A stretch of DNA of 31,961 nt from positions 1-31,961 of the IMG/VR virus record IMGVR_UViG_3300037847_004236; one strand, 5' to 3'. The notes beneath the pieces were generated by a model that had not been told where the DNA came from, did no database searches, and worked only from the letters and a program-made list of their open reading frames with translations. Source of the stretch: a virus. This document shows positions 3,803-28,895 of the stretch, piece after piece (position 1 is the first letter of the stretch; every line of letters starts with the position of its first letter). Position numbers and translations under genes: made by a program.

Positions 3803-3818
3803 AATAAATATATTTATA
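3803..3818. promoter_or_regulatory. Divergent T4-type late promoter pair
   Basis: The 16-base sequence AATAAATATATTTATA is a near-palindrome. Read on the minus strand it contains an exact TATAAATA (3811-3818) facing the gene starting at 3789. Read on the plus strand it contains AATAAATA (3803-3810) facing the gene starting at 3878. TATAAATA is the known T4 late-promoter core. No sigma70 -35 box is visible. Confidence 0.55.
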
Positions 3819-3877
3819 CATACTAACAAAAAACCACAAAATAAGCAAGAAAAAATGTTACCGTTTTAAATAAAGGT

Positions 3878-4420
3878 ATGAAAGCACACTTTGTTGGCAA
3901 TGGCGCCTCTCAAGAAATATTTTTGGCAAGACAGCGATATGGTTTTGTTGCTGTGGGCAATTATCCAAAACAAATCAAGTTTTGGGACTCCACAACCATA
4001 ATAGATCACAAAATGGTTATATGGGTCAGCAACACCAACAAAAAATTATTCAAAGGCAAAGACATTTGGTGCACACCAGATGTAGCCAAGTGGGCAAGAA
4101 ACTTTGACCTGTTAGGCAAGTGGCACGCAATACTTGAACCAAAGATTAAATTTAGTTCAGGACATCAAGCAGTGCAAAATCTATCTAAAAAATTTATGTT
4201 TATTGATTTATGGGGTATGGATTCCATGTATAGCGAAGATTTGTTATCCAAGATGGATGAAGACATACCAAGACCTAAAAGACCTCCACTCAATAATGAT
4301 TGGAGACCTTATTGGCGTGATCTTTTTAAGAGATTCCCCAAAGTTAAATATACCATACACGCACCAGAAGGAGTGACAAAGATAGATTATGGCGAGAACT
4401 GTAGATACGAACTTCACTAA
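3878..4420 (+). CDS. MptE/DUF115-like sugar or nucleotide enzyme candidate (180 aa)
   Basis: The N-terminal VGNGAS loop (residues 6-11), the SSGHQAVQ helix start (93-100) and the FIDLWGMDS strand-loop (108-116) follow the order of conserved motifs in DUF115/MptE-like and related sialyltransferase-like proteins (GNGPS, SG..A, L.G.D). Such proteins are common in phages beside glycosylation genes. The likely role is nucleotide-sugar use in glycan modification, but substrate and activity are unknown. AAAGG lies close upstream of the ATG. It is the first gene of the rightward late block and overlaps the next gene by 32 nt. Confidence 0.6.
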   Translation: MKAHFVGNGASQEIFLARQRYGFVAVGNYPKQIKFWDSTTIIDHKMVIWVSNTNKKLFKGKDIWCTPDVAKWARNFDLLGKWHAILEPKIKFSSGHQAVQNLSKKFMFIDLWGMDSMYSEDLLSKMDEDIPRPKRPPLNNDWRPYWRDLFKRFPKVKYTIHAPEGVTKIDYGENCRYELH

Positions 4421-4838
4421 AAGAAAATTAGAGAAATGGTTAATTGGATTGACCAAGCCAAGAAAACAATTGGACGGTCTACCTGTGTGTCCTTATCTAA
4501 AACATTATAGAGATAGAATACATCTAGCAAGAAACAAAGACCCTGAAAGATTAGCAAGACATTTTGCAGAGGTAAAAGACATCTTTAAATTTGAGGCGTG
4601 TGTGGTGTTTGGTTTTTGGATGAGTTGGAACAAAATGGAAAAGATGGTAGATACATTAAACAAGGATCTAAAGAAGAAAGATGTGTGTTGTTTTATGATG
4701 CATCCAGATGGAGATGAAGATGTTTTACCAGTAGAATACCCATTTGACATACCTGTTTTAATTGTGCAAAAAATTAGCACATTAGAGAAAGCAAAAAAAC
4801 AGTTAAGTAAAACAAACTACTACAAACATTATAAATAA
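4389..4838 (+). CDS. Hypothetical protein with GLPVCPYLK motif (149 aa)
   Basis: The N-terminal part carries WLIGLTKPRKQLDGLPVCPY, where a Trp helix is followed by a G-L-x-x-C-P segment. The same arrangement occurs in small proteins of unknown function in marine phages. The middle (FEACVVFGFWMSW) and C-terminal strand (DIPVLIVQKIS) suggest an alpha/beta fold. It begins inside the end of the preceding gene in another frame (32-nt overlap), which argues for co-translation. Its stop codon overlaps an exact TATAAATA motif serving the fibre gene downstream. No function is assigned. Confidence 0.6.
   Translation: MARTVDTNFTKRKLEKWLIGLTKPRKQLDGLPVCPYLKHYRDRIHLARNKDPERLARHFAEVKDIFKFEACVVFGFWMSWNKMEKMVDTLNKDLKKKDVCCFMMHPDGDEDVLPVEYPFDIPVLIVQKISTLEKAKKQLSKTNYYKHYK
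4830..4837 (+). promoter_or_regulatory. T4-type late promoter motif (TATAAATA)
   Basis: An exact TATAAATA overlaps the last codons of the preceding gene, 22 nt before the ATG of the fibre gene at 4859. There is no -35 box. Confidence 0.5.
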
Positions 4839-4858
4839 TACACAATCAGGAGCATTGC

Positions 4859-5665
4859 ATGGCAATTACACTTAGAACAACAACACAAGCAGGAACAACC
4901 AACAAAGGTTCAACTCTTACACACGCAGAATTGGATGCCAACTTTGTTGATTTGTTAACAAGTAAATTAGCAGATATAATAGACGACACATCACCACAAT
5001 TGGGTGGCAATCTTGATGTGAATGGACAAAAAATTACTTCTACTTCAGATGGAAACATTGATATTGAACCTAATGGCACAGGTGATGTTCTTTTAGGAAA
5101 TTTTAAATTTGATGCTGATCAAACAGTTGATGCAGGAAAAGACAATTATGTCATGACATATGACAACGGCACAGGCAAGATCAGTTTAGAAGCGGCATCA
5201 GGCGGTGGCGGTGGAGATAGTGTTGGCGCAGGAAACAATATAGAAATTACAAATGCTGATTCGGCAGGTGAAAAAACAATAGCATTAAGAAGTCCACTTA
5301 ACCAACCTGTTGATGCAGGTGATCAACAATTGAGTAATCTCTCAATCAAAAATTATGGAGAAATTGTTTACACATCAGGCACAGCAACAGGCACAATCAC
5401 ACCAGATCCAAACAATGGCAGTGTCCAAAAAATCACATTGACTGGTTCAATCACATTGAACAGTCTTTCAAATGTGGCATCAGGTGATTCAATGACATTG
5501 ATTGTTAAACAACCTTCTTCAGGTGGACCTTACACACTTTCAAGTTCAATGAAATTTGCTGGAGGGTCAAAAGCATTATCAACAGATGCCAATGCCATAG
5601 ACATAATCACAATATTCTACGATGGAACAGATTATCTCGCTTCATTGAGCACCAACTTTAGTTAA
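4859..5665 (+). CDS. Tail fibre protein with T4-like-phage repeat module (268 aa)
   Basis: The start (MAITLRTTTQAGTTNKGSTL) and residues 43-53 (DTSPQLGGNLD, followed by VNGQKI and PNGTGDV) are modules seen in fibre proteins of marine T4-like phages. A Gly-rich linker lies near residue 120. The C-terminal ~60 residues (GSITLNSL, GGPYTLSSSMKFAGGS, ANAIDIITIFYDGTDYLA) form a beta-rich end domain that recurs in the gene at 7106. The role is receptor contact at the tail. It follows a TATAAATA motif and an AGGAG site, and is the first of a run of structural surface proteins. Confidence 0.75.
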   Translation: MAITLRTTTQAGTTNKGSTLTHAELDANFVDLLTSKLADIIDDTSPQLGGNLDVNGQKITSTSDGNIDIEPNGTGDVLLGNFKFDADQTVDAGKDNYVMTYDNGTGKISLEAASGGGGGDSVGAGNNIEITNADSAGEKTIALRSPLNQPVDAGDQQLSNLSIKNYGEIVYTSGTATGTITPDPNNGSVQKITLTGSITLNSLSNVASGDSMTLIVKQPSSGGPYTLSSSMKFAGGSKALSTDANAIDIITIFYDGTDYLASLSTNFS

Positions 5666-5674
5666 GGAGATAGT

Positions 5675-7081
5675 ATGCCATTAGGCGCGGCAAGATTAAA
5701 CACACTCGCAAAAGTATTAACTGTGACAGACACCAATAGATCCACAGGATTTTTGAATGTGACAGCAAATGGTGATGCCCAACTATCCAACGCACAATAC
5801 AAATTTAGAACTGGCACACGAGGCGGTAGCATCTACATGGATGGTAGCGGTGACTATCTGTCTATGAATGATAACAGCGATAACAATCTAGACTTTGGCA
5901 CAGATGATTTCACAATTGAATGGTTTCAATATCTCACATCATTGGACAGATTTGCAATTGATATGCGTAATGGTTCCAACGGCGCAAAAATTATGTTGTA
6001 TTCTTATCCCTCAGATGGATCAGCAGATGATTTATATCTATGGGTAAATTCAGCAAACCGAATATCTGCTATGAATGTGTTGAGTGCCAACACATGGCAA
6101 CACATAGCACTGGTGCGTGAATCAGGAACCACAAGTCTTTATGTGGACGGCACACAGAGTGGTGGAACATACTCGGACTCAAACAGTTACTCACATGATG
6201 AATTAAGAATATGGCACAATTCAATAGGGGGAGAATTTTATACCCCACCAGGTTATGTGGATGAATTTAGAATTTCAGACACAGCAAGATATTCAGGAGC
6301 ATCTTTCACAGTGCCCTCATCAGCATTCATACAAGACAACAACACAAGACTATTGCTACATGGTGATGGTCCTTACGGATCAAACGGTAACAGACACATT
6401 GTGGATGACATAGGCGATTTAAGACCACTGGACATACACATAGAACAAAATGTGACAGTGAACAGTGGATCCCCGGCATCAATATCCACAGCACAATCAA
6501 AATTTGGTAGTTCCAGTTTGAGAATGAACGACAACAATTCACACTGTCAATATGTTTCACCTGCATGGGGTGATGCATTCACAATAGAATTTTGGTTCAG
6601 AGCAGATTCACTGTCAGGCGATCAATGGATGGCAGGTGTATGGGGTGGATCGCCGCATGGTGGATTCAACTGGGGCATATATCTGAATGGATCCACAGTG
6701 AAAGCATATGTGTGGAACGGCAGTTATCAATTGAACAATGCCACTATTGGGACAGCATCCTCAAACACATGGCATCATGTGGCACTCACATGGGATGGTA
6801 GCACCTACAGAACATTTCTAGACGGCACCGCGGGAGGATCAAACTCCAGTTCAACTGCTCCTGCTTTTGATCAATGGCAGGTCACATGGGTGGGCACAGT
6901 GGGAGGCACAACCAGCACCTTTGCAGGTTACATAGACGAATACAGACAGAGTGACACAGCAAGATACACATCAAATTTTTCACCTTCAGGATCAGCATTC
7001 ACTAACGACAGCAACACAAAAGTTTTGCTACACTTTGATGGCGGAAATGGTGACACCACGACCACAGATGATGCCAGTTAA
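5675..7081 (+). CDS. Double LamG/concanavalin-like fibre protein (468 aa)
   Basis: The N-terminus (MPLGAARLNTLAK) is a short anchor seen on lectin-like proteins of marine phages. Two related jelly-roll repeats follow. Repeat 1 is around 35-215 (GDYLSMN, DDFTIEWFQYL, WQHIALVRESGTTSLYVDG, YVDEFRISDTARYSG). Repeat 2 is around 280-450 (AFTIEFWFRADSL, WHHVALTWDGSTYRTFLDG, YIDEYRQSDTARYTS). These are LamG/laminin-G-type carbohydrate-binding domains. It probably binds host glycans as part of the adsorption apparatus. It follows the fibre gene by 9 nt and belongs to the same transcript. Confidence 0.8.
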   Translation: MPLGAARLNTLAKVLTVTDTNRSTGFLNVTANGDAQLSNAQYKFRTGTRGGSIYMDGSGDYLSMNDNSDNNLDFGTDDFTIEWFQYLTSLDRFAIDMRNGSNGAKIMLYSYPSDGSADDLYLWVNSANRISAMNVLSANTWQHIALVRESGTTSLYVDGTQSGGTYSDSNSYSHDELRIWHNSIGGEFYTPPGYVDEFRISDTARYSGASFTVPSSAFIQDNNTRLLLHGDGPYGSNGNRHIVDDIGDLRPLDIHIEQNVTVNSGSPASISTAQSKFGSSSLRMNDNNSHCQYVSPAWGDAFTIEFWFRADSLSGDQWMAGVWGGSPHGGFNWGIYLNGSTVKAYVWNGSYQLNNATIGTASSNTWHHVALTWDGSTYRTFLDGTAGGSNSSSTAPAFDQWQVTWVGTVGGTTSTFAGYIDEYRQSDTARYTSNFSPSGSAFTNDSNTKVLLHFDGGNGDTTTTDDAS

Positions 7082-7087
7082 TAAATA
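7080..7087 (+). promoter_or_regulatory. T4-type late promoter motif (AATAAATA)
   Basis: The motif sits at the stop codon of the LamG gene and 19 nt before the next ATG. The cyanophage late consensus NATAAATA is met. Confidence 0.45.
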
Positions 7088-7600: not shown

Positions 7601-8247
7601 TGCCTTTATTCAACACCAGCATACTAACAGGCAGTGAACAAGGTCAATTTGCTGTTGTGCAATTTGGTGGTCAAGAAGACAGTGGATCAACAGGCGGATC
7701 AAACATAGCAGGTGTAGTCAAACCAGGTAGTGGTGGAACCGTTGACAGTGCAGGACATACAGGTGCAGGCAACGAAACATTATATGATCCATTTAATCTT
7801 ACAGGAGGCAGTAAACAGACAACTGCCACAGGACCATTCATTTACAACGATGGTTTTTTGTATGAGTATTCACTTGGTAGTGGACAACAAATTTCCAATG
7901 TATATTTTCAGATGAATCCTTCCAACTACGGTCAACAACACAGGGTAACATTAATTAAAACCTATGACAGTTTTGATGCAGGCATAGACAAAGTTTCATT
8001 GGTGCAAAGACTTACCTCTAACCCCAGCAGTGGAGACACAACTTACAACAATGCGGTTGTGATTATGGACCTTTTAAATAGATTAGGTGATTCAACAAAT
8101 AACATCACTGACCTTGAAACCACTGCAACCTTTACACCTAGTTCAACATTCGGATATATCACAATGTTGCAAGTAGGTTTACCATTACAATCTAGTGGAA
8201 GTCGTAGAACAACTGGAACTTGTCGTTTCAAAATTGAACTTGTCTAA
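7600..8247 (+). CDS. Structural protein of the fibre cluster (215 aa)
   Basis: No named family. The protein is Gly/Ser/Thr-rich with alternating beta-type pattern (AVVQFGGQEDSGSTGGS, YEYSLGSGQQISNVYFQ, TFTPSSTFGYITMLQVGLPL) and has no membrane segment or signal. Composition and position between two fibre-type genes indicate a virion surface component, perhaps a fibre tip or a partner of the neighbouring fibre. It starts in the TAATG overlap with the upstream gene, so it is likely co-translated. Confidence 0.6.
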   Translation: MPLFNTSILTGSEQGQFAVVQFGGQEDSGSTGGSNIAGVVKPGSGGTVDSAGHTGAGNETLYDPFNLTGGSKQTTATGPFIYNDGFLYEYSLGSGQQISNVYFQMNPSNYGQQHRVTLIKTYDSFDAGIDKVSLVQRLTSNPSSGDTTYNNAVVIMDLLNRLGDSTNNITDLETTATFTPSSTFGYITMLQVGLPLQSSGSRRTTGTCRFKIELV

Positions 8248-8253
8248 TAAATA
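8246..8253 (+). promoter_or_regulatory. T4-type late promoter motif (AATAAATA)
   Basis: Located right at the stop of the upstream gene, 51 nt before the ATG at 8305. A small hairpin (TGTTCT, loop ACAA, AGAACA) follows at about 8258-8273 in the predicted leader. Confidence 0.45.
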
Positions 8254-8304
8254 AAATTGTTCTACAAAGAACACACTTAAAAACAACAAACAAGGAGAAC
8301 TACT

Positions 8305-11018: not shown

Positions 11019-11347
11019 TGGCAACACTCACAGGATACAAACAAGACAGAGTTGGACAATTCATAGAAAAAGATCCATTTGCGGTGCTGGACTTCAGTCT
11101 AGATTTTACAAATTGGATGCCTACAGGCGATACAATTTCCTCAATCACAGTGACAGCAGAAACTATCTCAGGCGATGCCGCACCATTAGTGATTGATTCT
11201 ACTAACAACACAAATTATGTGGCAACAGCAAATATATCAGGCGGCACAGCAGGCAATATCTACAATGTTGAATACAAAATTATTACAAACAATTCATTAA
11301 AAGATTCTAGAAACATTAGAATAAAAGTATTGGAAAGACAAGCATAA
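11018..11347 (+). CDS. Fibre-tail adaptor protein, Ig-like (109 aa)
   Basis: The pattern F.EKDPFAVLDFSLDFTNWM, GDTISSITVTAE, NISGGTAGNIYNVEYKIITN and DSRNIRIKVLER matches a small phage protein family commonly annotated as fibre-tail adaptor (ILE-type strands, GGTAG turn, Y-x-V strand). It is expected to join the neighbouring surface fibre to the virion. Length is typical. It overlaps the repeat-protein gene by 1 nt and the terminase small subunit gene by 1 nt, in one tightly packed operon. Confidence 0.7.
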   Translation: MATLTGYKQDRVGQFIEKDPFAVLDFSLDFTNWMPTGDTISSITVTAETISGDAAPLVIDSTNNTNYVATANISGGTAGNIYNVEYKIITNNSLKDSRNIRIKVLERQA

Positions 11348-11661
11348 TGGATAAAGAAAAAGATAATCACAGAGGCAAGAAAGTAGATAAAGAAATAATC
11401 TACAAGTTATCTTGCGAAATGGCAACCTATGAAGAGATTGCTGTGACTGTGGGTATATCTGTAAAAGCATTAAAAAAGAAATATAAAAATTTAATTCTGA
11501 AAGGCAGAGAAGACGGAAAGAAAAGTCTTCGTAGAGCACAGTTTCAGAAAGCATTAAATGGTGATACTAAAATGATGGTATGGTTGGGCAAACAATATCT
11601 TGGTCAAAAAGATTCACCAGAAGACAAAGAAGGAACACAACCACTACCATGGGAGGATTAA
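11347..11661 (+). CDS. terS: Terminase small subunit candidate (104 aa)
   Basis: Residues ~15-45 form a helix-turn-helix (IIYKLSCEMATYEEIAVTVG followed by ISVKALKKKY). The C-terminal half contains KALNGDTKMMVWLGKQYLGQ, the signature of many phage small terminases and related packaging regulators. The protein recognises genome DNA at packaging and feeds it to the large subunit. It lies 3 nt upstream of the large-subunit gene, as usual. Confidence 0.8.
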   Translation: MDKEKDNHRGKKVDKEIIYKLSCEMATYEEIAVTVGISVKALKKKYKNLILKGREDGKKSLRRAQFQKALNGDTKMMVWLGKQYLGQKDSPEDKEGTQPLPWED

Positions 11662-11664: not shown

Positions 11665-12918
11665 ATGGCACTGTCAGACGCCCAAAAGTCAATATGCGAT
11701 TCACCAGCACGGTTCAGAGTGGCAGTGACGGGAAGACGATTCGGGAAAACTTATTGTGCTATCCGAGAATTGGCAAGGCACGCGGCAAAACCCAATCAGG
11801 AGTGTTATTATGTGGCACCAAGTTATCGCATGGCAAAATCCATTGTGTGGGATCAGTTCAAAACAAAACTGAAACAACTGAGATGGATAGAACAAACTAA
11901 CGAGGCAGAATTAACAATGAGATTAAAGTCAGGTTCAAAAATATATCTAAAAGGTGCAGAAAACAAAGATGCATTAAGAGGTGTTGGTTTGGATTTTTTA
12001 GTTATGGATGAGTTTCAAGATTTAGATAATGAATTATGGACTGCTGTATTAAGACCTACACTGTCTGACAAAAAAGGCAAAGCATTGTTCTTAGGCACTC
12101 CAAGAGGTGTTGGATCATTCAGTCATGATATGTATTCAATGGCACAAAGCACAGACGACTGGGAAGCATTCACATACAAAACTGTGGAAGGCGGACAAGT
12201 TGAAGAAACAGAAATAGAAGAAGCAAAGAGAGACCTAGACACAAAAACATTTGAACAAGAATACTTGGCAACTTTCAACACATATTCAGGCATGGTATAT
12301 TACAATTTTGACAGAGCAAAAAATGTTGTGCCTTGTAATGGTTTAGACACAAAAGAAATACACTGTGGGATTGACTTCAACATAGATCCAATGAGTGTGG
12401 CAATCAGTGTAATTGTAAACAACAAAATTTATTTTATAGATGAAATTAACATGACAGGATCAAACACAGATCAAGTGTGTGACGAATTAAGAAGAAGATA
12501 TCCAAACAGCAGAATCATAATGTATCCAGATGCCGCAGGTAGACAGAGAAAAACATCTGCAGGTGGTAGAACAGATATATCAATTTTACAGAACGCAGGA
12601 TTTAGAATAAATGTCAAGATGGCCAATCCACCAATCAGAGACAGAGTAAATGCTGTAAATAGTAAGTTAGAAAATTCAAAAGGAGAAAGATCATTATTTG
12701 TAGATCCAAAATGTAAGCAGATAATCAAAAGTTTAGAATCAATGACATACAAACCAAACACATCAGTAATACACAATGACGATAACACGCACATGGCAGA
12801 TGCTGTTGGTTACCTTGTTGATTTCTTATATCCATTAAGAACAAATTATTCTGCCCAACAACCTACAAGATGGGCATTCTCAAAAAACACACAAGGAGTA
12901 AGCAATGCCCGTTATTAG
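11665..12918 (+). CDS. terL: Terminase large subunit (417 aa)
   Basis: This is the DNA-packaging motor ATPase and nuclease. Walker A is GRRFGKT at residues 23-29, Walker B is FLVMDEF at 111-117 with catalytic Asp115-Glu116, and a coupling segment follows (FLGTPRG). The RNase H-like nuclease domain is visible as CGIDFNIDPMSVAI (first Asp), YPDAAGR in the middle and HMADAVGYL near the C-terminus (last Asp). Length and motif order are typical. It overlaps the portal gene by 14 nt. The short ATPase domain and lack of recognisable cos flanks leave the packaging mode (headful or otherwise) open. Confidence 0.95.
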   Translation: MALSDAQKSICDSPARFRVAVTGRRFGKTYCAIRELARHAAKPNQECYYVAPSYRMAKSIVWDQFKTKLKQLRWIEQTNEAELTMRLKSGSKIYLKGAENKDALRGVGLDFLVMDEFQDLDNELWTAVLRPTLSDKKGKALFLGTPRGVGSFSHDMYSMAQSTDDWEAFTYKTVEGGQVEETEIEEAKRDLDTKTFEQEYLATFNTYSGMVYYNFDRAKNVVPCNGLDTKEIHCGIDFNIDPMSVAISVIVNNKIYFIDEINMTGSNTDQVCDELRRRYPNSRIIMYPDAAGRQRKTSAGGRTDISILQNAGFRINVKMANPPIRDRVNAVNSKLENSKGERSLFVDPKCKQIIKSLESMTYKPNTSVIHNDDNTHMADAVGYLVDFLYPLRTNYSAQQPTRWAFSKNTQGVSNARY

Positions 12919-14437
12919 AGATAGACTTATAAAAGGTGATTCAAGATACGCAGTGGACTATATCACTGACGCTCATGCAGGATACAAATATTATCACAAC
13001 AGATGGCAGTTCCTAGGTGATTCTTACACAGGCGGTTATGACTTCTTTGCAAGTAGATATCTAGAACCATACTACTATGAATCAAGAGATGATTACGAAA
13101 AAAGATTAAGACAGGTTGCATTGGACAACCATGTGTCTTCTATTGTGGGCATTTACAATTCATTCTTGTTTAGAAAAAATATCAAAAGGGAAGTTGAATC
13201 ATTAGAAACAGATACAAACTATCAAGCATTTATTAAAGACGCTGACCTAGATGGAAGAACATTTGCTTCTTTTATGAGAGATGTCAGTGCAATGGCAATG
13301 GTGTATGGAAACGCATGGGTTATTGTAGACAAACCAAACAATCAAGTATTCACAAGAGCAGAAGCATTACAGCAAAACATCAGACCATATGTTTCAATGT
13401 TCACACCAGACAATGTGTTGGATTGGAAATATGAAAGACAAGCAAATGGTTTATACCAACTGACGTATCTAAAAGTAAAAGAAGAAGTAATTGAAGACGA
13501 ACAATTTATTAGAGAATACACACCTACAGAAATTAATGTATACAAATTGTATGGCAAAGAGAAGAAAGGTGAATATATCGAAACAATACCAAACACATTA
13601 GGCAGAATACCTGCTGTATGTGTGTATGCAAAAAGATCAAACATAAGAGGTATTGGTATAAGTGCTGTGGGCGATATTGCTGATCAGCAAAGAATGATTT
13701 ATGAAGAATATTCAGAGATAGAACAAATTATAAGATTAACCAATCATCCAACTTTGGTTAAGACAGCGGACACCGAAGCAAGTGCAGGCGCAGGTTCAAT
13801 TGTGCAACTACCACAAAACCTTGATCCAGGTTTAAAGCCATACCTTTTACAGCCTAATGGATCGTCAATTGAATCTGTGCTATCATCTATACAAAGAAAA
13901 GTAGATGCCATAGACAGAATGGCGTGTTTGGGTGGAATAAGATCAGTGGAGTCTAGAAGATTATCAGGCATAGGATTACAAACAGAGTTCCAAATGCTTA
14001 ATGCTAAATTGGCAGATTTTGCAATGAATCTAGAACACGCAGAAGAACAAATTTGGGACCTTTGGACTGCTTTGGAAGGCAAAACATTTGAAGGTCAAAT
14101 AACATATCCAAGATCCTTTTCAATACAGGACAAAGCGAACGATATCTCAGTGTTAAAAATAGCAAAAGACGCCAAACCAGCAGATCCTATGATTGTAGAA
14201 AAAATTGATAGAATGATTATTGAAACAATCACAGAAAAAACTTATGACGAAGTCAAAGAGGCAATGGCGGAAGAACAACCTGCGAAAGACATGATGCAAC
14301 ACGCACCAATCACTGACTTGAATGACATGGTGATGCATTTAAGAAAAATGGTTGAAGCAGGTTACACAGACGAAGAAATAAAATCATTACATCCAGAATT
14401 AGCACAATTATTCACGACTGGTCAAAATGAAGAATAG
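12905..14437 (+). CDS. Portal protein (510 aa)
   Basis: Size, position directly after terminase, and sequence support a portal. The N-terminus has YFASRYLEP-type aromatic segments with HNRWQFLG and YLEPYYYES, then LRQVALDNHVSSIVGIYNSF, and a central DNA-channel region including SAVGDIADQQRMIYEEYSEI. The C-terminal domain is helical and acidic. It resembles the DUF4055-type portal group. It forms the dodecameric ring at one capsid vertex through which DNA enters. It overlaps terL by 14 nt and is followed after 8 nt by small basic genes. Confidence 0.85.
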   Translation: MPVIRDRLIKGDSRYAVDYITDAHAGYKYYHNRWQFLGDSYTGGYDFFASRYLEPYYYESRDDYEKRLRQVALDNHVSSIVGIYNSFLFRKNIKREVESLETDTNYQAFIKDADLDGRTFASFMRDVSAMAMVYGNAWVIVDKPNNQVFTRAEALQQNIRPYVSMFTPDNVLDWKYERQANGLYQLTYLKVKEEVIEDEQFIREYTPTEINVYKLYGKEKKGEYIETIPNTLGRIPAVCVYAKRSNIRGIGISAVGDIADQQRMIYEEYSEIEQIIRLTNHPTLVKTADTEASAGAGSIVQLPQNLDPGLKPYLLQPNGSSIESVLSSIQRKVDAIDRMACLGGIRSVESRRLSGIGLQTEFQMLNAKLADFAMNLEHAEEQIWDLWTALEGKTFEGQITYPRSFSIQDKANDISVLKIAKDAKPADPMIVEKIDRMIIETITEKTYDEVKEAMAEEQPAKDMMQHAPITDLNDMVMHLRKMVEAGYTDEEIKSLHPELAQLFTTGQNEE

Positions 14438-15178: not shown

Positions 15179-15348
15179 CATCAGCATCAGCAGTTTCTTC
15201 TTTGATTGGTCCAAGACCGTCAAAAAGAAAATTTAAACTAAGAACAGGAGGACGCATAATGCCAGGGACTAGAGGAAAAAGAAAAATGTCATCTCGTCGT
15301 GGTGGTTCAAGAAGACCAGCGACTAGGGGCAAAAAGAAAAGAAGATAA
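15169..15348 (+). CDS. Short, extremely basic protein with internal start (59 or 29 aa)
   Basis: The frame starts in the overlap with the upstream gene (GCATGG). It has a neutral N-terminal part (MAITSASAVSSLIGPRPSK) and a protamine-like C-terminus (RGKRKMSSRRGGSRRPATRG then KKKRR). An internal ATG at 15259 has a much better Shine-Dalgarno (AGGAGG, 15246-15251), so the product may be a 29-aa Arg/Lys peptide, or both forms may be made. It may neutralise DNA in the capsid or be a cleaved packaging peptide; this is inference. Confidence 0.55.
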   Translation: MAITSASAVSSLIGPRPSKRKFKLRTGGRIMPGTRGKRKMSSRRGGSRRPATRGKKKRR

Positions 15349-15354
15349 TAAATA
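15347..15354 (+). promoter_or_regulatory. T4-type late promoter motif (AATAAATA) with following palindrome
   Basis: The motif directly follows the TAA of the basic-peptide gene. It is followed by an 18-base inverted repeat at 15363-15380 (ATGTGTTT, GT, AAACACAT) in the leader of the scaffold gene, which starts at 15418. Confidence 0.45.
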
Positions 15355-15417
15355 AGTTTCTAATGTGTTTGTAAACACATGGAGGGCACTCTAACTCATT
15401 ATACAAAGGAGGACATA

Positions 15418-16119
15418 ATGGACGCAGAAACACAAGCGGTAAAAACACAGGACACTGCACCTGTAAACGAACAGCAGGCACAGACAACAGTCAGTGAAGA
15501 AAAAACTGAAACTTTCTCTCAAGAAGCAGTTAATAAAATAGTTGCAGAAAGAGTAGCAAAGGAAAAAGCCAAATACGATAAAAAGTATGGAAGCATTGAT
15601 GTTGATCACTACAACAGGTTGGTCGAAGCAGAAGAAAAGGCAAGACAAACTGATTTGGAAAAAAGAGGCGAGTTTGAAAAGTTGTTGAAAGAACAAGCAG
15701 ACAAATTTGCTTCAAAAATAAACCAATATCAGTCAGAACTTACTTCTATTAAGATTGACGGAGCATTGTTAAGTGAGGCTTCAAGTCTAAAAGCGGTTAA
15801 TCCTAATCAGGTTACACAACTTTTAAAAGGACAATTGAAGTTGAATGAAACAGGCACAGTTGATGTGATAGACACAAACTCGGGTCAAGTGCGTTATAAT
15901 GACAAAGGCGAACCGATACAAGTTAAAGACTTGGTGCAGGAGTTTCTTCAAGCAAACCCACACTTTGTCTCAGCAGGACCTTCAGGGTCAGGCACAGGAC
16001 AAGGAGCAGGCAAGCAACAGACTGTGACAGACAACGATATAAGCAAACTAAACATGAGTAATCCTGAACACAGGGAGCAATATCGAAAGATCATGGCATC
16101 CAAAGGGATCTCTGTTTAA
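15418..16119 (+). CDS. Capsid scaffold protein (233 aa)
   Basis: The protein is acidic and helical. It has a Gln/Thr-rich N-terminus, then a long coiled coil at about 33-118 (SQEAVNKIVAERVAKEKAKY, DLEKRGEFEKLLKEQADKFA), a small C-terminal domain and a Gly/Ser-rich linker (GPSGSGTGQGAG). This is the usual look of phage scaffold or DUF4355-like proteins, and it lies directly upstream of the major capsid gene. The start at 15418 is chosen because AAAGGAGG precedes it; an in-frame ATG at 15379 has no good site. No prohead protease was found, so the scaffold probably leaves intact or is cleaved by an unknown enzyme. Confidence 0.85.
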   Translation: MDAETQAVKTQDTAPVNEQQAQTTVSEEKTETFSQEAVNKIVAERVAKEKAKYDKKYGSIDVDHYNRLVEAEEKARQTDLEKRGEFEKLLKEQADKFASKINQYQSELTSIKIDGALLSEASSLKAVNPNQVTQLLKGQLKLNETGTVDVIDTNSGQVRYNDKGEPIQVKDLVQEFLQANPHFVSAGPSGSGTGQGAGKQQTVTDNDISKLNMSNPEHREQYRKIMASKGISV

Positions 16120-17011: not shown

Positions 17012-17017
17012 TAAATA
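17010..17017 (+). promoter_or_regulatory. T4-type late promoter motif (AATAAATA) after capsid gene
   Basis: The motif overlaps the TAA of the capsid gene and lies about 32 nt upstream of a strong terminator. If it initiates, it would make only a very short RNA. Confidence 0.35.
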
Positions 17018-17048: not shown

Positions 17049-17084
17049 AGGAAGGGCGTTAGGAAACTTTCGCCCTTTCTTTTT
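17049..17084 (+). terminator. Rho-independent terminator after major capsid gene
   Basis: AGGAAGGGCG (17049-17058) pairs with CGCCCTTTCT (17071-17080) across a 12-nt loop, with one G-U pair, and is followed by TTTT. It would limit transcription beyond the capsid gene and help set a high capsid to tail protein ratio. Confidence 0.85.
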
Positions 17085-17092
17085 GAGTAGAA

Positions 17093-17101
17093 GAATAAAT
17101 A
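17093..17101 (+). promoter_or_regulatory. T4-type late promoter motif (GAATAAATA)
   Basis: Located just after the terminator and 60 nt before the ATG at 17161. It would restart transcription for the neck and tail genes. A small inverted repeat (GCAAGT, AGA, ACTTGC) follows at 17113-17127 in the leader. Confidence 0.45.
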
Positions 17102-17160
17102 ATCATATCAAGGCAAGTAGAACTTGCTTGAATTAACGGAAAGGGCAGGAACCCATACTA

Positions 17161-18362: not shown

Positions 18363-18776
18363 ATGGCAACATATACAGGCGAGAACGGCAAAGTATCTGT
18401 AGGTGCAGATAGTGCCGGTCAAACAACCGTTGCAGAAGTTCGTTCTTGGACAGTTGAACACACTAAAGATGTTATTGAGGACACTGTGATGTCAGATGCC
18501 GCTAGAACTTTTAAGAGTGGATTACATCAATTCACAGGTTCAATGGAGTGTATCTACGACGACACTACTGCTCAATTGGCTTTAGGCGCTTTTCAACCAG
18601 ACACAGATACGGCTCTTAGAGTTGAATTCTATCCAAACGACGGCGCGGGCAAAAAATTTGCAGGAAATGTTATCGTTACTTCGGTATCAAGAACAGCAAG
18701 TTTTGACGACTTGGTTACTGTGACTGTAAATTTCCAAGGCACAGGACCATTGAACACAGACGCTTACAACACATAA
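18363..18776 (+). CDS. Major tail tube protein (137 aa)
   Basis: The sequence ATYTGENGKVSVGADSAGQT, VRSWTVEHTKDVIEDTVMSD, KSGLHQFTGSMECIYDDTTA and VIVTSVSRTASFDDLVTVTV fits small siphovirus tail-tube proteins: a G.V.V start, W-x-V/E-x-x, SG..FTGS.E and a final F-D-D-L-V-x-V strand. It stacks as rings around the tape measure. It has an excellent AAGGAGGACTAAT start region, as expected for an abundant protein. Confidence 0.85.
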   Translation: MATYTGENGKVSVGADSAGQTTVAEVRSWTVEHTKDVIEDTVMSDAARTFKSGLHQFTGSMECIYDDTTAQLALGAFQPDTDTALRVEFYPNDGAGKKFAGNVIVTSVSRTASFDDLVTVTVNFQGTGPLNTDAYNT

Positions 18777-19429: not shown

Positions 19430-19620
19430 GAGAGGATGTTGAACTATTTCTATTGTTGCGTATTGCTAAAGAATTAGGCAAGTCAATAGAAGAAGTTATG
19501 CAGTTTAGCATCCTAGAAATACAACTTTGGAGTGCGTATTTTAAATTAGAGCATGACGAACAACAGAAGGTAATGAAGAGTGGCGGAACGAATAAACATA
19601 GAACTAGTCGTCGTAGATAA
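19079..19620 (+). CDS. Tail assembly chaperone frameshift product, gpGT-like (180 aa)
   Basis: A -1 shift on A_AAA_AAC at 19420-19426, immediately before the zero-frame stop, continues in frame from CTA at 19426 to TAA at 19618. It adds 64 residues (LREDVELFLLLRIAKELGKS, VMQFSILEIQLWSAYFKLEH and a basic tail). The FS..E...W.AYF.LE pattern is that of gpT-type C-terminal domains. The shifted part overlaps the tape-measure start by 41 nt. This is the lambda G/GT arrangement. Confidence 0.85.
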
Positions 19621-21490
19621 AACAACTGCGGCACTAAAAAGAACAAAAGCAGGAGTTGTTAATGTCAATTCTAGTCTTATGAAGACTAGTGCATTGGCAA
19701 AGACAGCAGTTGCGGCTCTTGGTGCCTTTGGAGCGGCTAGGATTGTTAAGAGTGTTGTCAATGTTGGTCAACAAGTAGAAGAACTAGGATTAAGATTCAA
19801 GTTCTTATTTGGAACGGCTGAGGAAGGTGCAAAAGCATTTGACAACTTGGTTAATTTCGCCGCTAAAGTTCCTTTCACACTTGAAGAGATACAACAGGGT
19901 GCAGGTAACCTTGCTGTTATTTCTGAAAACGCAGACGAATTATCCACAAACTTAGAACTTGTGGGTAATGTTGCGGCGGTGACTGGACTTGATTTCAGAA
20001 CAACGTCAGAACAAATACAAAGAGCATTTGCAGGTGGTATTGCTTCCGCAGACATCTTTAGAGAAAGAGGTGTAAGGGCATTATTAGGATTTAAGGAAGG
20101 TGCTAAGGTAAGTGTTGAAGAAACACGAGAAGCATTCCAAAGAGTGTTTGGTAAAGGTGGACAATTTGGTAATGCCACAGATGAATTTGCAAACACACTT
20201 ACAGGAACGATATCAATGCTTCAAGATAAATTGTTCAAGGTGCAGAAAGCCATATCAGATGGATTCTTTGAAGAATTAAAAACACAATTTGGCGACTTGA
20301 ATGATGTATTGAATGAGAACGAACAAACCATAGAACAATTTTCCAAAACAATTGGTGAAAGTCTTGCAGAAGGTATTAGAAAAGCAGTAGATGCCTTTGC
20401 ATTTTTAAGAGAGAATCTTGCTGAAGTTGAAGCAGTGTTAGGATTAGTTTTCCTTGCTTCAAGAAAAGTTGTAAAAGGCATAACAGGATTGGTCTTAATT
20501 GTAGATTCAGTCAATAGAAAAATTAGAGAATTAAAAGAAAGATTAGGATTATTAGACACAGAATTTAACAAAGTTGATGCAAACGCACCTATGTATGACG
20601 ACTTTAGTCATTCTGTAGATAATGCAACAGAAAGCACAAAGAAAAACACAGAAGCAGTTGTAGAATCCACAGCGGCATATGATGACCATAATGATGCAGT
20701 GGCAGAAGCAAACAGAAAAGCACATGAACAAGAAGAAAGAGACAAAGCCGCGGCAAAAGAGAAAGCGGACCTTAAAAAATTATTAGAAGCAAACACAAAA
20801 AAATTGTTGGCAATGAACAAAGCAATGTCCAATGATTTATTAATTGGTGCATTAGAAAAAGTTACAGACGGTGCTGACCTATTACAAGGATCCATAGATG
20901 CAGTGGCTGGTGGATTTGAAACATTTAGAAGCACAGCATCAACGGCATTGACTGATGTTTTGATGGGCACAAAAAGTTTAAGTGATGCTTTAGGAAGCAT
21001 TGTCAAAGAAACACTAAGAGCATTAATACAAGGATTTATAAATTTAGGTATAACAATATTTGTATTAGAACCACTAGAAGATTTTTTAAGAAAAGTTTTC
21101 AAAAGACAAAGAGACATAAACAAAGAACTTAAAACAGAAATTGGTTTAAGAGCAATACTGGCACTATTTGGTGGTGGCGGTGGTGGAGGTATTCCTTTCC
21201 TAGCAGACGGTGGACCAGTATCTAAAAATCAACCATACATTGTGGGTGAAGAAGGACCAGAATTATTTGTGCCTAACAAATCAGGAACCATTGTTCCAAA
21301 CAACATGATGCCACAAGCAGGATCATCAGGTGGTTCAGCAATGGGTGGAGATGTCACTGTAAACTTTAATATTAACACAGTGGATGCGGCAGGCATGGAT
21401 GAATTATTGGTAGACAGAAGAACAACCATTGTTGGCATAATAAATCAAGCATTAAACCAAAGAGGAAGAGTAGGAGTGACAAATGGCTAG
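19580..21490 (+). CDS. Tape measure protein (636 aa)
   Basis: GTG start. Longest helical protein of the tail module: hydrophobic N-terminal region (SALAKTAVAALGAFGAARIV), a conserved tape-measure segment (FKFLFGTAEEGAKAF, VPFTLEEIQQGAGNL, VTGLDFRTTSEQIQRAFAGG), coiled coils, and a Gly-rich C-terminal end (FLADGGPVSKNQPYIVGEEG, PELFVPN) typical of siphovirus tape measures. By the usual rule of about 1.5 Å per residue this predicts a tail near 95 nm. It starts inside the frameshift product and overlaps the next gene by 8 nt. Confidence 0.92.
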   Translation: MAERINIELVVVDKTTAALKRTKAGVVNVNSSLMKTSALAKTAVAALGAFGAARIVKSVVNVGQQVEELGLRFKFLFGTAEEGAKAFDNLVNFAAKVPFTLEEIQQGAGNLAVISENADELSTNLELVGNVAAVTGLDFRTTSEQIQRAFAGGIASADIFRERGVRALLGFKEGAKVSVEETREAFQRVFGKGGQFGNATDEFANTLTGTISMLQDKLFKVQKAISDGFFEELKTQFGDLNDVLNENEQTIEQFSKTIGESLAEGIRKAVDAFAFLRENLAEVEAVLGLVFLASRKVVKGITGLVLIVDSVNRKIRELKERLGLLDTEFNKVDANAPMYDDFSHSVDNATESTKKNTEAVVESTAAYDDHNDAVAEANRKAHEQEERDKAAAKEKADLKKLLEANTKKLLAMNKAMSNDLLIGALEKVTDGADLLQGSIDAVAGGFETFRSTASTALTDVLMGTKSLSDALGSIVKETLRALIQGFINLGITIFVLEPLEDFLRKVFKRQRDINKELKTEIGLRAILALFGGGGGGGIPFLADGGPVSKNQPYIVGEEGPELFVPNKSGTIVPNNMMPQAGSSGGSAMGGDVTVNFNINTVDAAGMDELLVDRRTTIVGIINQALNQRGRVGVTNG

Positions 21491-22714: not shown

Positions 22715-23208
22715 TAATAAGACAAATGAATAAAGAAGACATCAATGCCATGATTGATTGTATTAAGACACAGGCATTGGATGCTGATCTACCAAGTAGC
22801 GATGAAATAGATGTAGAACATCTAAGTCATGTTATAAGAGACGCATTGATAGATCCAAGATATTATGTGTTGGTTGCTGTGGAACAGGATCATATTATAG
22901 GATTCTGTGCAGGTATGCTGACAATGAAACATTGGAATCCTAAGATATATGGAGAAATATTTTTCATATACACACACCCAGAAAGACGCTCCAAGCAATT
23001 GGCGGACAGTCTTTTTGATGGTTTGGTCAAATGGTTCACAGAACAAAAATGTGCATATGTTATTACCAGTGTGCTACACTTTGATGAACACTTCAAACCA
23101 AGAGAAGATTATATGCGTAAGGGTGACATATATTTTAGATCAAAAAATTTACAACCAATAGGACAATACTACATCAAAGGAATAAACGGCTCGCATGAAG
23201 GTTTATAA
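22711..23208 (+). CDS. GNAT-family acetyltransferase in the tail module (165 aa)
   Basis: Starts MIIRQMNKEDINAMIDCI in the ATGA overlap, in preference to a longer frame starting at 22696. GNAT features: LVAVEQDHIIGFCAGMLTM (strands 2-4), EIFFIYTHPERRSKQLADSL (acetyl-CoA loop with R-R-x-x-x-x-A in motif A), and a final Y-rich strand. It should transfer an acyl group to an unknown target. It takes the position where lambda has K (NlpC/P60), directly upstream of the tip gene, which it overlaps by 14 nt, so it may modify a tail protein or host surface amine. Confidence 0.75.
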   Translation: MIIRQMNKEDINAMIDCIKTQALDADLPSSDEIDVEHLSHVIRDALIDPRYYVLVAVEQDHIIGFCAGMLTMKHWNPKIYGEIFFIYTHPERRSKQLADSLFDGLVKWFTEQKCAYVITSVLHFDEHFKPREDYMRKGDIYFRSKNLQPIGQYYIKGINGSHEGL

Positions 23209-25606
23209 GAAAATAGTTTACGACAAAGACATGAATGTCATAGAAGAAGATTCTTATGACTACAAAGGTCCTGTCACAGAGTGCAAAGGTGGAGGTGGTG
23301 GTAACCCCATTAAAAAAGTTTTCAAGAAAGTTTCTAAAATTTTCAAGAAAATAATTAAAAAGATCACTTCTTTTGTGGGTGATGTGTTTGGCTTTGTGTT
23401 AAAACCTTTTGGTTTACCAGAATTGGGTGGGTTTGACGCAGACAACATCGCATCAGGTGTAAAACTGACCAAACCAGGCACTAACATTGGAATCCCAGTG
23501 GTGTATGGTTATAGGCGTGTGGGGGCTATACCCATATTTGCTGAAACAGACGGATCCAACAACAGAGATCTGTATGTGGTTTATGCGGTGTGCGAAGGAG
23601 AAATACAAGGTTTTAGAAAAATCTTTGTCGACGGACACTTTGTTGGTATTTCTCCCAGCGGCACTTATTACACAAAAGAAACTCCATTAAATGGTGCAGG
23701 CAGATACGCTGGTAACCTACAATTTGAATGTATGAATGGCACAGAAACACAACCAGAATCTCAACTTATGCAAGGTTCACCCACTTGGCGAAGCAAACAG
23801 AGAACAATGCCAGGATTGGCATATGTTGCATTTAAGTTTAGTTGGTTTGCATCCACACAGGAAGAAGTAGATGCCAATCCTTACGGAGGTGGACTACCAC
23901 AAATAGAATTTGAATTGAACGGCAGAAAAATTTATGATGTAAGAACACATTCAGGCGGATTGGACCTAGCAAATGATTACGAAAATCTTACAAAAACATT
24001 TACAAGCAGTTCACGGGGTGATGTTGGTTGTAATCCAGCAAACATTGTGTTAGATTATCTTATGAATCCTAGATATGGCGCAGGATTTAAGAAAGAAGAA
24101 ATAAACGCAACCAGTTTCAAAATAGCGGCAGACAAATTGGCACAAACTGTGACCTTTGATCCCAATCTTACTTCCAATAACACAGGTCGTGTAATGGATT
24201 GCAACGCAGTGCTAGATACCACACAAAAAATTTTAGACAACTGTAAAACTTTGTTGTCAGGAGCAAGATCTTATCTACCATATGTGGAAGGCAGATACAA
24301 ATTAAGAGTTGAAGATGGTGGACATCCTACAGACATTACATCCAGCACAGTTTCTGTTGCATTTGACATCACAGAAGATCATCTTGTTGGTCCAGTCACA
24401 CTGTCAGGTGAACAGAAAGACACAAAATACAATCAGGTTATTGTGAACTACATAGATCCAATGATGGAGTTCAGTTCGCAACAAGTGTTCTTCAGCACAG
24501 CGGGTGACAAAGCAATAGATGACGATGAAGACCTAACAGGAGAATTTACATTTGAAACATTGACCAATAGAGCAATAGCACAAGACATAGCAAGAATGAT
24601 CTACAAAAAATCTAGAGCACAAAGACAGATACAATTTGTAGCAACACAAGAATTGTTAAATGTTGAAGTGGGAGACATTGTAAGAGTCACAGACACAATA
24701 CTGGGATTGAATCAGCAAACATTCAGAGTGATGGGACTCACATTGGAATTGAATGGCAATGTAAAAATAGAAGCAGTTGAACACGATGCCACTGTGTATC
24801 CCCATGTTGCAACAGAACAACAAGAATTACCACCACCAGTGTTCTTACCTAATCATTATTTCAACAAAGTAAGAACAAAACCACAGGAACCTGTAAACAC
24901 AAACTATCAGAATCCAGATGGAACACCACCAGAGAGAGAACAAGAACCTGCACAACCTATTGTGGAAAGATTTATAGATCCTACCATAGTAACTGTGAAC
25001 ACAGCCATTTATGAAAACAAGAGTGCAGACTCATTCCTGTTTCAGAACAAACAGACCAACGCAAAAACAAATATGACACCTTCTCCAAACGGCTTGAATG
25101 GTGCTGTAAGGATTGACAACGGTCCAGATGTAATTTTCAAAAGAACCTTTTCAACAACAATGGTGCCAATTGCACAAATGGCGCCAACATTTCCAGATGG
25201 TGATGCCAACGGTATTGAAATATCAGTGTTGAACCAAGACGGTAGCAAGTTTTTTAGAACCTATGACTTTAGGGAAGAGATTGGTATCAACCGCCCATTA
25301 CCAAATTCACAAACACAAACAGGTCAGGTTACAACCATTCAACCTAGTAAAGGAATACCTACATTGATTTACGAAGTATTAAATGTGCCATTATACAAAG
25401 GATCTGAATACACAGTGAGATATATCAATTTCAGCACAAGAAAAACTTACATAACAGGTGGCAGTATAGGCAGTTGGTCAGGATTTTCAACACACACTTA
25501 CACCAGAAAAGGCAACACCATCAGCAACTCAGGTCTAGAAGGCTTTATAAATTATTTGGCAGAGAATTTTGGATTGGATGGATCGAGAGTGAATCTAGGA
25601 GGATAA
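23195..25606 (+). CDS. Tail tip attachment protein, gpJ-like (803 aa)
   Basis: This is the large central tip protein. Residues 30-75 are a Lys-rich amphipathic hydrophobic stretch after a CKGGGGG turn. Residues 88-147 (VKLTKPGTNIGIPVVYGYRR, DLYVVYAVCEGEIQG, KIFVDG) are the conserved N-terminal region of gpJ-type proteins. A phage-tail-3-type segment follows near 425-560 (KYNQVIVNYIDP, QDIARMIYKKSRAQRQIQFV, NVEVGDIVRVTD). The last ~200 residues are less conserved and may bind the receptor or fibres. The gene is the end of the core tail module. Confidence 0.88.
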   Translation: MKVYKKIVYDKDMNVIEEDSYDYKGPVTECKGGGGGNPIKKVFKKVSKIFKKIIKKITSFVGDVFGFVLKPFGLPELGGFDADNIASGVKLTKPGTNIGIPVVYGYRRVGAIPIFAETDGSNNRDLYVVYAVCEGEIQGFRKIFVDGHFVGISPSGTYYTKETPLNGAGRYAGNLQFECMNGTETQPESQLMQGSPTWRSKQRTMPGLAYVAFKFSWFASTQEEVDANPYGGGLPQIEFELNGRKIYDVRTHSGGLDLANDYENLTKTFTSSSRGDVGCNPANIVLDYLMNPRYGAGFKKEEINATSFKIAADKLAQTVTFDPNLTSNNTGRVMDCNAVLDTTQKILDNCKTLLSGARSYLPYVEGRYKLRVEDGGHPTDITSSTVSVAFDITEDHLVGPVTLSGEQKDTKYNQVIVNYIDPMMEFSSQQVFFSTAGDKAIDDDEDLTGEFTFETLTNRAIAQDIARMIYKKSRAQRQIQFVATQELLNVEVGDIVRVTDTILGLNQQTFRVMGLTLELNGNVKIEAVEHDATVYPHVATEQQELPPPVFLPNHYFNKVRTKPQEPVNTNYQNPDGTPPEREQEPAQPIVERFIDPTIVTVNTAIYENKSADSFLFQNKQTNAKTNMTPSPNGLNGAVRIDNGPDVIFKRTFSTTMVPIAQMAPTFPDGDANGIEISVLNQDGSKFFRTYDFREEIGINRPLPNSQTQTGQVTTIQPSKGIPTLIYEVLNVPLYKGSEYTVRYINFSTRKTYITGGSIGSWSGFSTHTYTRKGNTISNSGLEGFINYLAENFGLDGSRVNLGG

Positions 25607-27904: not shown

Positions 27905-27928
27905 TATGTTTAAGGCGTCATATCCATC

Positions 27929-27955: not shown

Positions 27956-27979
27956 AGTAAATGTATATGGTGACCAAAT

Positions 27980-27987
27980 TATAAATA
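27980..27987 (+). promoter_or_regulatory. T4-type late promoter motif (TATAAATA)
   Basis: Exact TATAAATA, 23 nt before the ATG of the fibre gene at 28010, with AAGGAG between. It sits in a 105-bp gap that has no convincing gene. Confidence 0.5.
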
Positions 27988-28009
27988 AAAAACAACAAGG
28001 AGACACATA

Positions 28010-28441
28010 ATGGGTTGGGCAAATGCAAGTAATGTAGTGACAACAAATTTGGATGATGCAACGGATTCACCGGCATCAGCAAGAGCAGATATCAAAACAG
28101 CATTTGATGAATTATCAAATGTAATCAACGGAAGAAACACGTCAAACGGTGTAGCAGGATTGGATTCTTCTTCAAAAATTTCTGCGGCACAACTGCCAGA
28201 TGAAATAAATTCATCAGCAACAAATCCATTAACAATAGATCCTGCCTCAGGCAAGGTCAAATTGGAAGAAATATTAAATCTTAAACCGCAAACCAAAGCA
28301 CAATTGAACGCAAGAACGGACAAAGCCACAGGAGATGTTGCTTTCTGTTCAGACGGTGGTGATGACTCCGGAGGAGTTGGCAGTATCGCTGTGTATGACG
28401 GTGCAGATTGGAGAGCAATACAACTAGGCGTAGTATTATAA
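28010..28441 (+). CDS. Short tail fibre protein (143 aa)
   Basis: The N-terminal segment (DSPASARADIKTAFDELSNV) is a clear relative of the one in the fibre gene at 7106. The middle (GVAGLDSSSKISAAQLPDEI) is a common fibre shaft motif, and the C-terminus (ARTDKATGDVAFCSDGG, GSIAVYDGADWRAIQLG) is a typical short beta end domain. It is probably a trimeric fibre or tip protein. It has its own late-type promoter motif and overlaps the holin candidate by 1 nt. Confidence 0.75.
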   Translation: MGWANASNVVTTNLDDATDSPASARADIKTAFDELSNVINGRNTSNGVAGLDSSSKISAAQLPDEINSSATNPLTIDPASGKVKLEEILNLKPQTKAQLNARTDKATGDVAFCSDGGDDSGGVGSIAVYDGADWRAIQLGVVL

Positions 28442-28605
28442 TGAAATTGAAAGATTTAGAAAAAAGAATCTGCAAGATTGAACGCACTTTGGAAAAAATA
28501 ATGAATAACCATCTTCATCATATCCAAGGCTACCAATTCTACATCCTTGCTTTGACAGGATTGATCGTTACCATGTTAATAGGCATCTTTATTAAGGTGA
28601 TGTAG
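28441..28605 (+). CDS. Holin candidate, XhlA-like layout (54 aa)
   Basis: Starts at the ATG overlapping the fibre stop (TAATG). The N-terminal half is a charged coiled coil (MKLKDLEKRICKIERTLEKI) and the C-terminal half is one transmembrane helix (~29-52, YQFYILALTGLIVTMLIGIF). This layout, coiled coil then C-terminal membrane helix, is that of XhlA-type holins and small phage membrane proteins of the lysis or tail-injection class. The position at the end of the late block fits a lysis gene. No endolysin accompanies it, so the call is tentative. Stop and next start overlap (TAGTG). Confidence 0.55.
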   Translation: MKLKDLEKRICKIERTLEKIMNNHLHHIQGYQFYILALTGLIVTMLIGIFIKVM

Positions 28606-28892
28606 TGCCCAGGGCAAAATACCATAATTACGGAGCGGATTATTATAGAAAATGGGGCACCAAACGACCCAAATACACCCCTCTCCAATTTCACGAACAG
28701 GACAACCGTTGTCCTAGATGCAAAGGCAGGTCTTTTGTGGCAGAAAGGCCCCTAAATCCACAAAGCAATTATAGGTCATACGGTTATATTACCAAAAGAG
28801 TGCTGTGGCGCATAAGGTGTGCCACTCCAAATTGCACGGAACCATATTGTGTTGTTCTCAAACCTGAATACTGGGACAGCACAGGATCATAA
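28605..28892 (+). CDS. Zinc-ribbon-like small protein (95 aa)
   Basis: GTG start overlapping the upstream stop. The N-terminus is Tyr-rich and basic. CPRC (Cys36, Cys39) and a second cluster CATPNCTEPYC (Cys72, 77, 82) could bind one zinc ion in a ribbon-like fold. A Tyr/Arg-rich segment (NYRSYGYITKRVLWRIRC) lies between. Function unknown; a DNA- or RNA-binding regulator or a virion protein are both possible. It is the last gene before the main late terminator. Confidence 0.55.
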   Translation: MPRAKYHNYGADYYRKWGTKRPKYTPLQFHEQDNRCPRCKGRSFVAERPLNPQSNYRSYGYITKRVLWRIRCATPNCTEPYCVVLKPEYWDSTGS

Positions 28893-28895
28893 ATA
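28888..28895 (+). promoter_or_regulatory. T4-type late promoter motif (CATAAATA)
   Basis: Overlaps the stop of the zinc-ribbon gene. Downstream comes only an untranslated stretch of about 90 nt and then a terminator, so any RNA made would be short and non-coding. Confidence 0.35.

Follow-up and report, generated by a model that had tools for sequence, protein, structure and literature searches.

The virus contig IMGVR_UViG_3300037847_004236, analysed here over its whole length of 31,961 b and referred to below as the window, carries a short motif, ATAAATA, in front of its virion operons. At the sequence level, our analysis shows that this motif, which has no -35 element, is conserved as an element and specific to the clade of the window, and that sigma-70 promoters of the host type precede early genes. 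The clade is one of siphophages that combine predicted host-type early promoters with predicted T4-type late promoters and have no known late factor. We put at about even the chance that these phages are autonomous, with late specificity provided by a small phage protein not recognisable in sequence or by a recruited host factor, and with growth that needs no helper.

All motif sites listed in the first-pass annotation of the window were present, the core of the one placed at 17093 lying at 17095; one further site, 10890, is located in coding sequence. The remaining sites are the following.
3804..3810, plus strand: ATAAATA, half of a divergent pair, upstream of the GT29-like gene 3878-4420 (motif search)
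3811..3818, minus strand: TATAAATA, leftward half of the divergent pair, upstream of 3388-3789 (motif search)
4830..4837, plus strand: TATAAATA upstream of the fibre gene 4859; ATAAATA at the equivalent place in 9 of 11 related contigs
7081..7087, plus strand: ATAAATA upstream of 7106; 7 of 20 related contigs
8247..8253, plus strand: ATAAATA upstream of 8305, followed by a dyad and a Shine-Dalgarno sequence; 25 of 32 related contigs
15348..15354, plus strand: ATAAATA upstream of the scaffold gene 15379, followed by a 5' hairpin; 9 of 10 related contigs
17011..17017, plus strand: ATAAATA overlapping the major capsid stop codon (motif search)
17095..17101, plus strand: ATAAATA opening the connector/tail operon, right after the post-capsid GC-rich hairpin and T-run
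27981..27987, plus strand: ATAAATA upstream of 28010 (genes for a fibre-type protein, an XhlA-like protein and a Zn-ribbon protein; motif search)
28889..28895, plus strand: NTAAATA overlapping the Zn-ribbon stop codon; kept in all eight aligned loci

The number of ATAAATA sites in the window as a whole is unremarkable (11 versus 7.2 expected, reached in 11 of 100 shuffles). Ten of the 11 fall within 2,603 b of intergenic DNA and 10-nt gene ends, where 1.4 were expected, a result obtained in none of 2000 shuffles; the 29.3 kb of coding DNA hold the single site at 10890. This distribution, together with placement and orientation kept in relatives, bears out the earlier statement that the motifs stand at or near late gene starts. 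The unremarkable total, and the overlap of sites 4830, 7081, 8247, 17011 and 28889 with the stop codon of the preceding gene, could suggest that the motif arises from the A+T-richness of intergenic DNA, from stop codons (TAA TAA) and from ribosome-binding context. We consider this highly improbable, since the element is retained approximately 12-106 nt from the start codon even where the flanking sequence differs, is strand-biased, and comes out on top of its permuted words in the clade, unlike in the A+T-richer sister phages. A stop-codon artefact was rejected on the basis of intergenic placement, conservation at orthologous genes, strand bias and word ranks.

Relatives of the window were taken from IMG/VR (G001-G017). 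By the large terminase subunit (TerL), the best annotated relatives are phage DSL-LC06 (64%) and the Pelagibacter phages HTVC111P, HTVC202P, HTVC112P, and HTVC026P (48-51%). In the TerL tree, a clade with 100/100 support unites the window with DSL-LC06 and G001-G011, apart from the HTVC phages and G012-G016; the capsid tree places the long-branch G011 outside the window clade. The closest relative is G017, whose capsid protein is 94% identical. Three of these genomes are circular by an end repeat, namely G008 (33,047 b, 77-nt repeat), G009 (91-nt), and G011 (127-nt), and DSL-LC06 was deposited as circular, while G010 (28,928 b) and G017 (31,729 b) are full length without an exact end repeat. 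Judged from these trees, the window clade represents an uncultured sister group of the HTVC111P-type pelagiphages. The latter are about 32 kb in size and share with the window TerL, portal, scaffold, capsid, connectors, major tail, tape measure, and tail tip proteins in a largely syntenic head-tail module. They have no annotated DNA polymerase and differ in that three of four carry a DnaD-domain gene, none being found in the window; apart from G011, they are separated from the window in both trees. DSL-LC06 (OR003941, from a Dishui Lake metagenome) resembles the window in synteny, surface-sugar genes, the Zn-ribbon protein, and ATAAATA before the orthologues of 8305 and of the scaffold gene, and differs in its accessory genes.

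The counts listed above for orthologous genes were taken over related contigs, which are not independent of each other, and the open reading frames (ORFs) of the relatives were called by a simple greedy rule. Before portal and major tail genes of relatives, ATAAATA was absent in all 34 cases. Over 459 upstream strips of the clade, it occurred 54 times in sense and eight times in antisense orientation and was the commonest of 21 words of the same composition. The corresponding numbers in the HTVC111P-type sister group were 23 and 15, unremarkable among such words, and no ATAAATA signal was found there. In individual genomes, ATAAATA ranked first of the 21 words in the window, DSL-LC06, G001, G002, G004, G005, G008, G009, G010, and G017, second in G003 and G007, and third in G011. 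The motif was absent from the partial contig G006, which has CTAAATA before its scaffold gene. Among phages used for comparison, the T4-like Mosig and S-RIM2 had ATAAATA in first rank; it was not top-ranked in the small marine phages Venkman and CRP-5 or in phage C72C1. Mosig also shares the layout of window positions 17011-17101, i.e., capsid gene, terminator, ATAAATA.

An alignment of 83 distinct ATAAATA sites contained no second strongly conserved position and hence no -35 or further upstream block; T directly preceded the motif in 25 of them. T4 late promoters likewise have no -35 element (PMC2988020), and the late promoter of cyanophage S-PM2 is NATAAATA (PMC2984593). We conclude, with good support, that the ATAAATA sites most probably serve as late promoters of the T4 type.

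Several of these sites are followed by small folded structures. A short dyad is present behind ATAAATA in 8254-8304 and its orthologues, with a sequence varying by relative (GTTATAAC, ATCGCGAT, GTTCGAAC), and before the orthologues of 8305 it is often followed by CCTTATAAGGAG, a palindrome spanning the Shine-Dalgarno sequence. Small 5' hairpins with variable stems directly follow the late promoter before the scaffold gene and the one after the capsid gene (15355-15400 and 17102-17140). Such hairpins would lend indirect support to transcripts starting close behind the element. Over all sites, folding downstream of ATAAATA was slightly better than in shuffled sequence (mean z -0.46, se 0.12).

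The putative early region comprises the following features.
28901..29046, plus strand: stretch with strong folding (z -5.3), lying past late element 28889 and before the early promoter
29049..29077, plus strand: sigma-70-type early promoter, TTGACT-N17-TATACT; eight aligned loci share the -35 and most of the -10 without variation
29085..29408, plus strand: first early gene, 107 aa, function unknown; by eye, its N-terminus resembles an ORF start in L133
29802..29830, plus strand: sigma-70-type promoter upstream of the methyltransferase gene
1576-1548, minus strand: sigma-70-type promoter before the 263-aa gene
758..1549, minus strand: gene behind the latter promoter, 263 aa (254 aa from the likely start at 1522), function unknown

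By simple count, sigma-70-type matches in the window are not above chance. The 29049 promoter is, nevertheless, kept at the equivalent place in eight divergent loci, and consensus sigma-70 promoters were also detected upstream of genes in the intergenic DNA of other clade genomes. The layout of 28889-29077 is shared with loci L131, L133, L134, L135, L137, L139, and L140: NTAAATA at the Zn-ribbon stop is followed by a stretch of 84-149 nt, poorly conserved in sequence and folding better than its shuffled versions (z -2.1 to -6.4), and then by the conserved early promoter TTGACTT..TATATA. The folded region, which has no Rfam match, might encode a late non-coding RNA or act as an insulator or origin. 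On the minus strand, 31516-31488 is a perfect extended sigma-70 promoter, TTGACA-17-TATAAT, with a terminator-like hairpin within about 20 nt behind it (31516-31454), which may specify a tiny RNA or a primer. Iteron-like TGGTYCAGA repeats at 31.37-31.57 kb were not above chance over the window and were rejected. Relatives of the products of 758..1549, 29049-29408, and 3388-3789 were not found in the viral contig collection; the product of 3388-3789 matches a G009 protein at 25%, which reveals no function. The AlphaFold model of the 254-aa early protein (758-1522) has a predicted local distance difference test score (pLDDT) of 43, too low for a fold search.

Since the early promoters point to use of a host-type RNA polymerase, a host sigma factor might also read ATAAATA directly, with no phage or helper factor, and an unusual alternative sigma factor in the host is conceivable. 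We rate this explanation as improbable. ATAAATA does not fit the sigma-70 -10 pattern TAnnnT, the T before the motif is found in just 25 of the 83 sites, and a -35 block is missing. To our knowledge, no bacterial sigma factor has a -35-less ATAAATA consensus. The lack of the signal in Venkman, C72C1, and CRP-5 also speaks against it.

The ends of the window carry an exact repeat, and the virion genes are arranged as follows.
3..100, strand not applicable: direct terminal repeat of 98 nt, exact match to 31864-31961
11347..11661, plus strand: terminase small subunit (TerS; weak PHROG match)
11665..12918, plus strand: terminase large subunit, TerL (PHROG match)
12905..14437, plus strand: portal (PHROG match)
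15379..16119, plus strand: head scaffolding protein (PHROG match)
16145..17011, plus strand: major capsid protein (PHROG match)
18363..18776, plus strand: major tail protein (PHROG match)
19580..21490, plus strand: tape measure protein (PHROG match)
23195..25606, plus strand: J-like tail tip protein (PHROG match)

Joining the 98-nt end repeats yields a circular map of 31,861 b, so that genes missing from the window are missing from the genome and were not cut off in assembly. The window is the full genome of a virulent-type, lambda-tailed siphophage. Its virion module, laid out as in lambda-type siphophages, spans TerS (11347) to the fibre-type protein (28010), with additional PHROG matches to a tail terminator, neck/tail-completion proteins, and a chaperone. 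The full virion module reported in the first reading was thereby recovered, from TerS, TerL, portal, scaffold, and major capsid to tail terminator, major tail, tape measure, and J-like tip. A GNAT acetyltransferase gene (22711-23208) is located within the tail-tip operon and occurs in all six of the clade genomes. Near the equivalent position, a lysine or RTX acyltransferase is annotated in HTVC111P, HTVC112P, and HTVC026P.

The same reading had found no recognisable replication module, and our searches agree. Scans of the non-virion ORFs of the window against Pfam, PHROGs, and NCBIfam returned a methyltransferase, an HNH endonuclease, and unknown-function matches, and nothing else. The gp55 families phrog_234 and phrog_12791 and the gp45 family phrog_223 had no match in the window, DSL-LC06, or G008-G011, and neither DnaB_C nor Sigma70_r2 was found in these genomes or in G017. 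In positive controls, T4 was detected by the phage sigma and clamp models, and Mosig gp55 scored below the cut-off against Sigma70_r2. A profile built from eight gp55 proteins (hmmsearch --max) yielded no hit better than chance among 13 genomes or fragments of the clade (best E 0.61); Mosig, when excluded from the profile, was retrieved with E 6e-58. Of the profile searches proposed as a check on the original annotation, those for sigma, clamp, and DnaB families were empty in the window as well as in the relatives searched, and T4-type promoters without a visible gp55 or gp45 are now supported clade-wide. According to the paper describing DSL-LC06 (PMC10611076), each of its seven genomes has replication proteins, but the record OR003941.1 annotates none.

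Because no gp55 or replication genes are recognised in the clade, the reader of the late promoters should be either an unknown phage or host protein or one borrowed from a co-infecting T4-like phage. In the latter case, the window would represent a helper-dependent phage, with its own virion and surface-modification genes, that requires co-infection by a T4-like (Kyanoviridae-type) phage. The helper's gp55, gp33, and gp45 would fire the ATAAATA promoters and its replisome would copy the phage DNA, making this a prokaryotic counterpart of virophages. The weight given to this explanation comes from the fact that both missing functions are those a T4-like helper supplies, the promoter being the helper's own. 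The motif matches exactly the late promoter of T4-like marine phages, NATAAATA (PMC2984593), and gp55, gp45, sigma region 2, and DnaB were not found in the clade members searched. BLAST clustering, which may miss fast-evolving small proteins, placed all genes common to the six full-length clade genomes in virion operons, including the GNAT gene of the tail operon. The matches obtained for 54 non-virion proteins of G008-G011 were solely to surface-modification, metabolic, and similar families: methyltransferases, asparagine synthase, glycosyltransferase, oxidoreductases, cupin, a histone-like protein, a small AAA protein, an ExoX-like C-terminal domain, and the like. No motif signal is seen in the HTVC sister phages, of which three out of four have the DnaD-type gene. 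The fibre-type protein encoded at 5675-7081 has its closest annotated-phage counterparts, at 33-37%, among structural proteins of T4-like cyanophages.

Against a helper stand the host-type early promoters of the window itself and the lack of a credible integrase match among the non-virion proteins scanned (window and G008-G011), which would make simultaneous co-infection necessary in each growth cycle. The sister group was deposited as isolates, in records that do not mention a helper. Moreover, activated late transcription in T4 also requires the sliding clamp (PMC2988020). T4 and the Kyanoviridae (Mosig, S-RIM2) share with the window the single-block NATAAATA/ATAAATA promoter (PMC2984593, PMC2988020), but T4-like phages are myophages of 140-200 kb with gp55 and gp45, while the window is a 32-kb siphophage in which neither was found. 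Satellites (P4, PICI, PLE, PICMI) and virophages resemble the window in missing replication and late-transcription genes and in a promoter matching that of another phage group. The known bacterial satellites borrow virion parts; the window encodes a full virion and has no integrase match, and thus differs from satellites on both counts. We know of no bacterial satellite that encodes a complete virion, which also counts against helper dependence. Overall, we regard a helper-dependent phage as a minority possibility, and only slightly less readily would we accept that the entire clade consists of full-virion tailed phages growing solely in cells co-infected by T4-like phages, with the helper's gp55-directed polymerase acting on their own late promoters. 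Of the first-pass interpretation, the promoter reading holds and extends to the clade, while for a satellite borrowing from a T4-like phage the evidence points both ways and leaves it unproven.

Our preference for an autonomous phage rests on three considerations. The records of the sister phages name Pelagibacter hosts and annotate no polymerase; phages leaning on the host replisome are known (PMC11348598, PMC9860041, PMC10504331); and a dependent phage that does not integrate would need co-infection in every cycle. Tailed phages poor in replication genes have been described (PMC11348598, PMC9860041, PMC10504331), and Skadi was reported to depend on host polymerases (PMC10504331). In an autonomous phage, early genes would be read by the host sigma-70 RNA polymerase, which would read the ATAAATA operons only once a gp55-like specificity had been acquired, and the DNA would be copied by the host replisome rather than by phage-encoded proteins. 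Several observations weigh against such autonomy. The equality of the motif with the T4-like one favours gp55 over an unrelated invention, no replication initiator was found in the searches described, and BLAST clustering of the six full-length clade genomes revealed no gene common to all of them outside the virion operons. In addition, the closest relative, G017, has no matches to the early unknowns 758..1549, 3388-3789, and 29085..29408 of the window, which makes these unlikely as the initiator of the lineage. The candidates left, all weak, are the HNH-type nucleases, one of two types of which is present in clade genomes, and the Zn-ribbon protein.

28605..28892, plus strand: 95-aa zinc-ribbon protein; four Cys at the equivalent place in DSL-LC06, G008, G009, and G010

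This protein keeps its place in five of the six full-length clade genomes, those of DSL-LC06, G009, and G010 being recognised from position and cysteine pattern alone, and it is a possible regulator. The location of its gene in a late operon would make it an awkward first trigger, a further point against autonomy. Only weak generic zinc-ribbon matches were obtained in Pfam, and no solved structure matched; the pLDDT of the AlphaFold model is 59, again too low for a fold search. An Ogr/Delta-like late activator was considered for its similar C-x2-C ... C-x4-C spacing and rejected, as comparison with the P2 Ogr profile gave 7% probability.

The remaining annotated genes of the window are listed below.
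1591..2109, minus strand: HNH endonuclease (phrog_3377)
2106..2468, minus strand: phrog_16521 protein, whose homologue in DSL-LC06 is annotated as PacI-like endonuclease
2455..3387, minus strand: surface-sugar enzyme, whose homologue in DSL-LC06 is annotated as KpsC-like
3878..4420, plus strand: sialyltransferase-like (GT29-like) gene, after the annotation of its DSL-LC06 homologue
29910..30437, plus strand: methyltransferase (Methyltransf_23)

In G008 and G010, asnB-like asparagine synthase genes (L019 8102-9790 and L116 670-2292, respectively) sit among surface-sugar and methyltransferase genes. The single close contig retrieved in the genome-contig scan, L105 (NZEU01000001.1, TerL 71%), is binned in the Porticoccaceae metagenome-assembled genome MED754; this is a weak host hint or a binning error, too weak to name a host.

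T4-type late promoters are known from gp55-encoding phages. In the present case, a whole clade of 29-33-kb phages appears to keep this promoter without a recognised reader. An unrecognised protein in this role would represent a novel type of promoter-specificity factor; with a borrowed reader, the clade would provide the first full-virion bacterial viruses known to depend on the late transcription of another phage.

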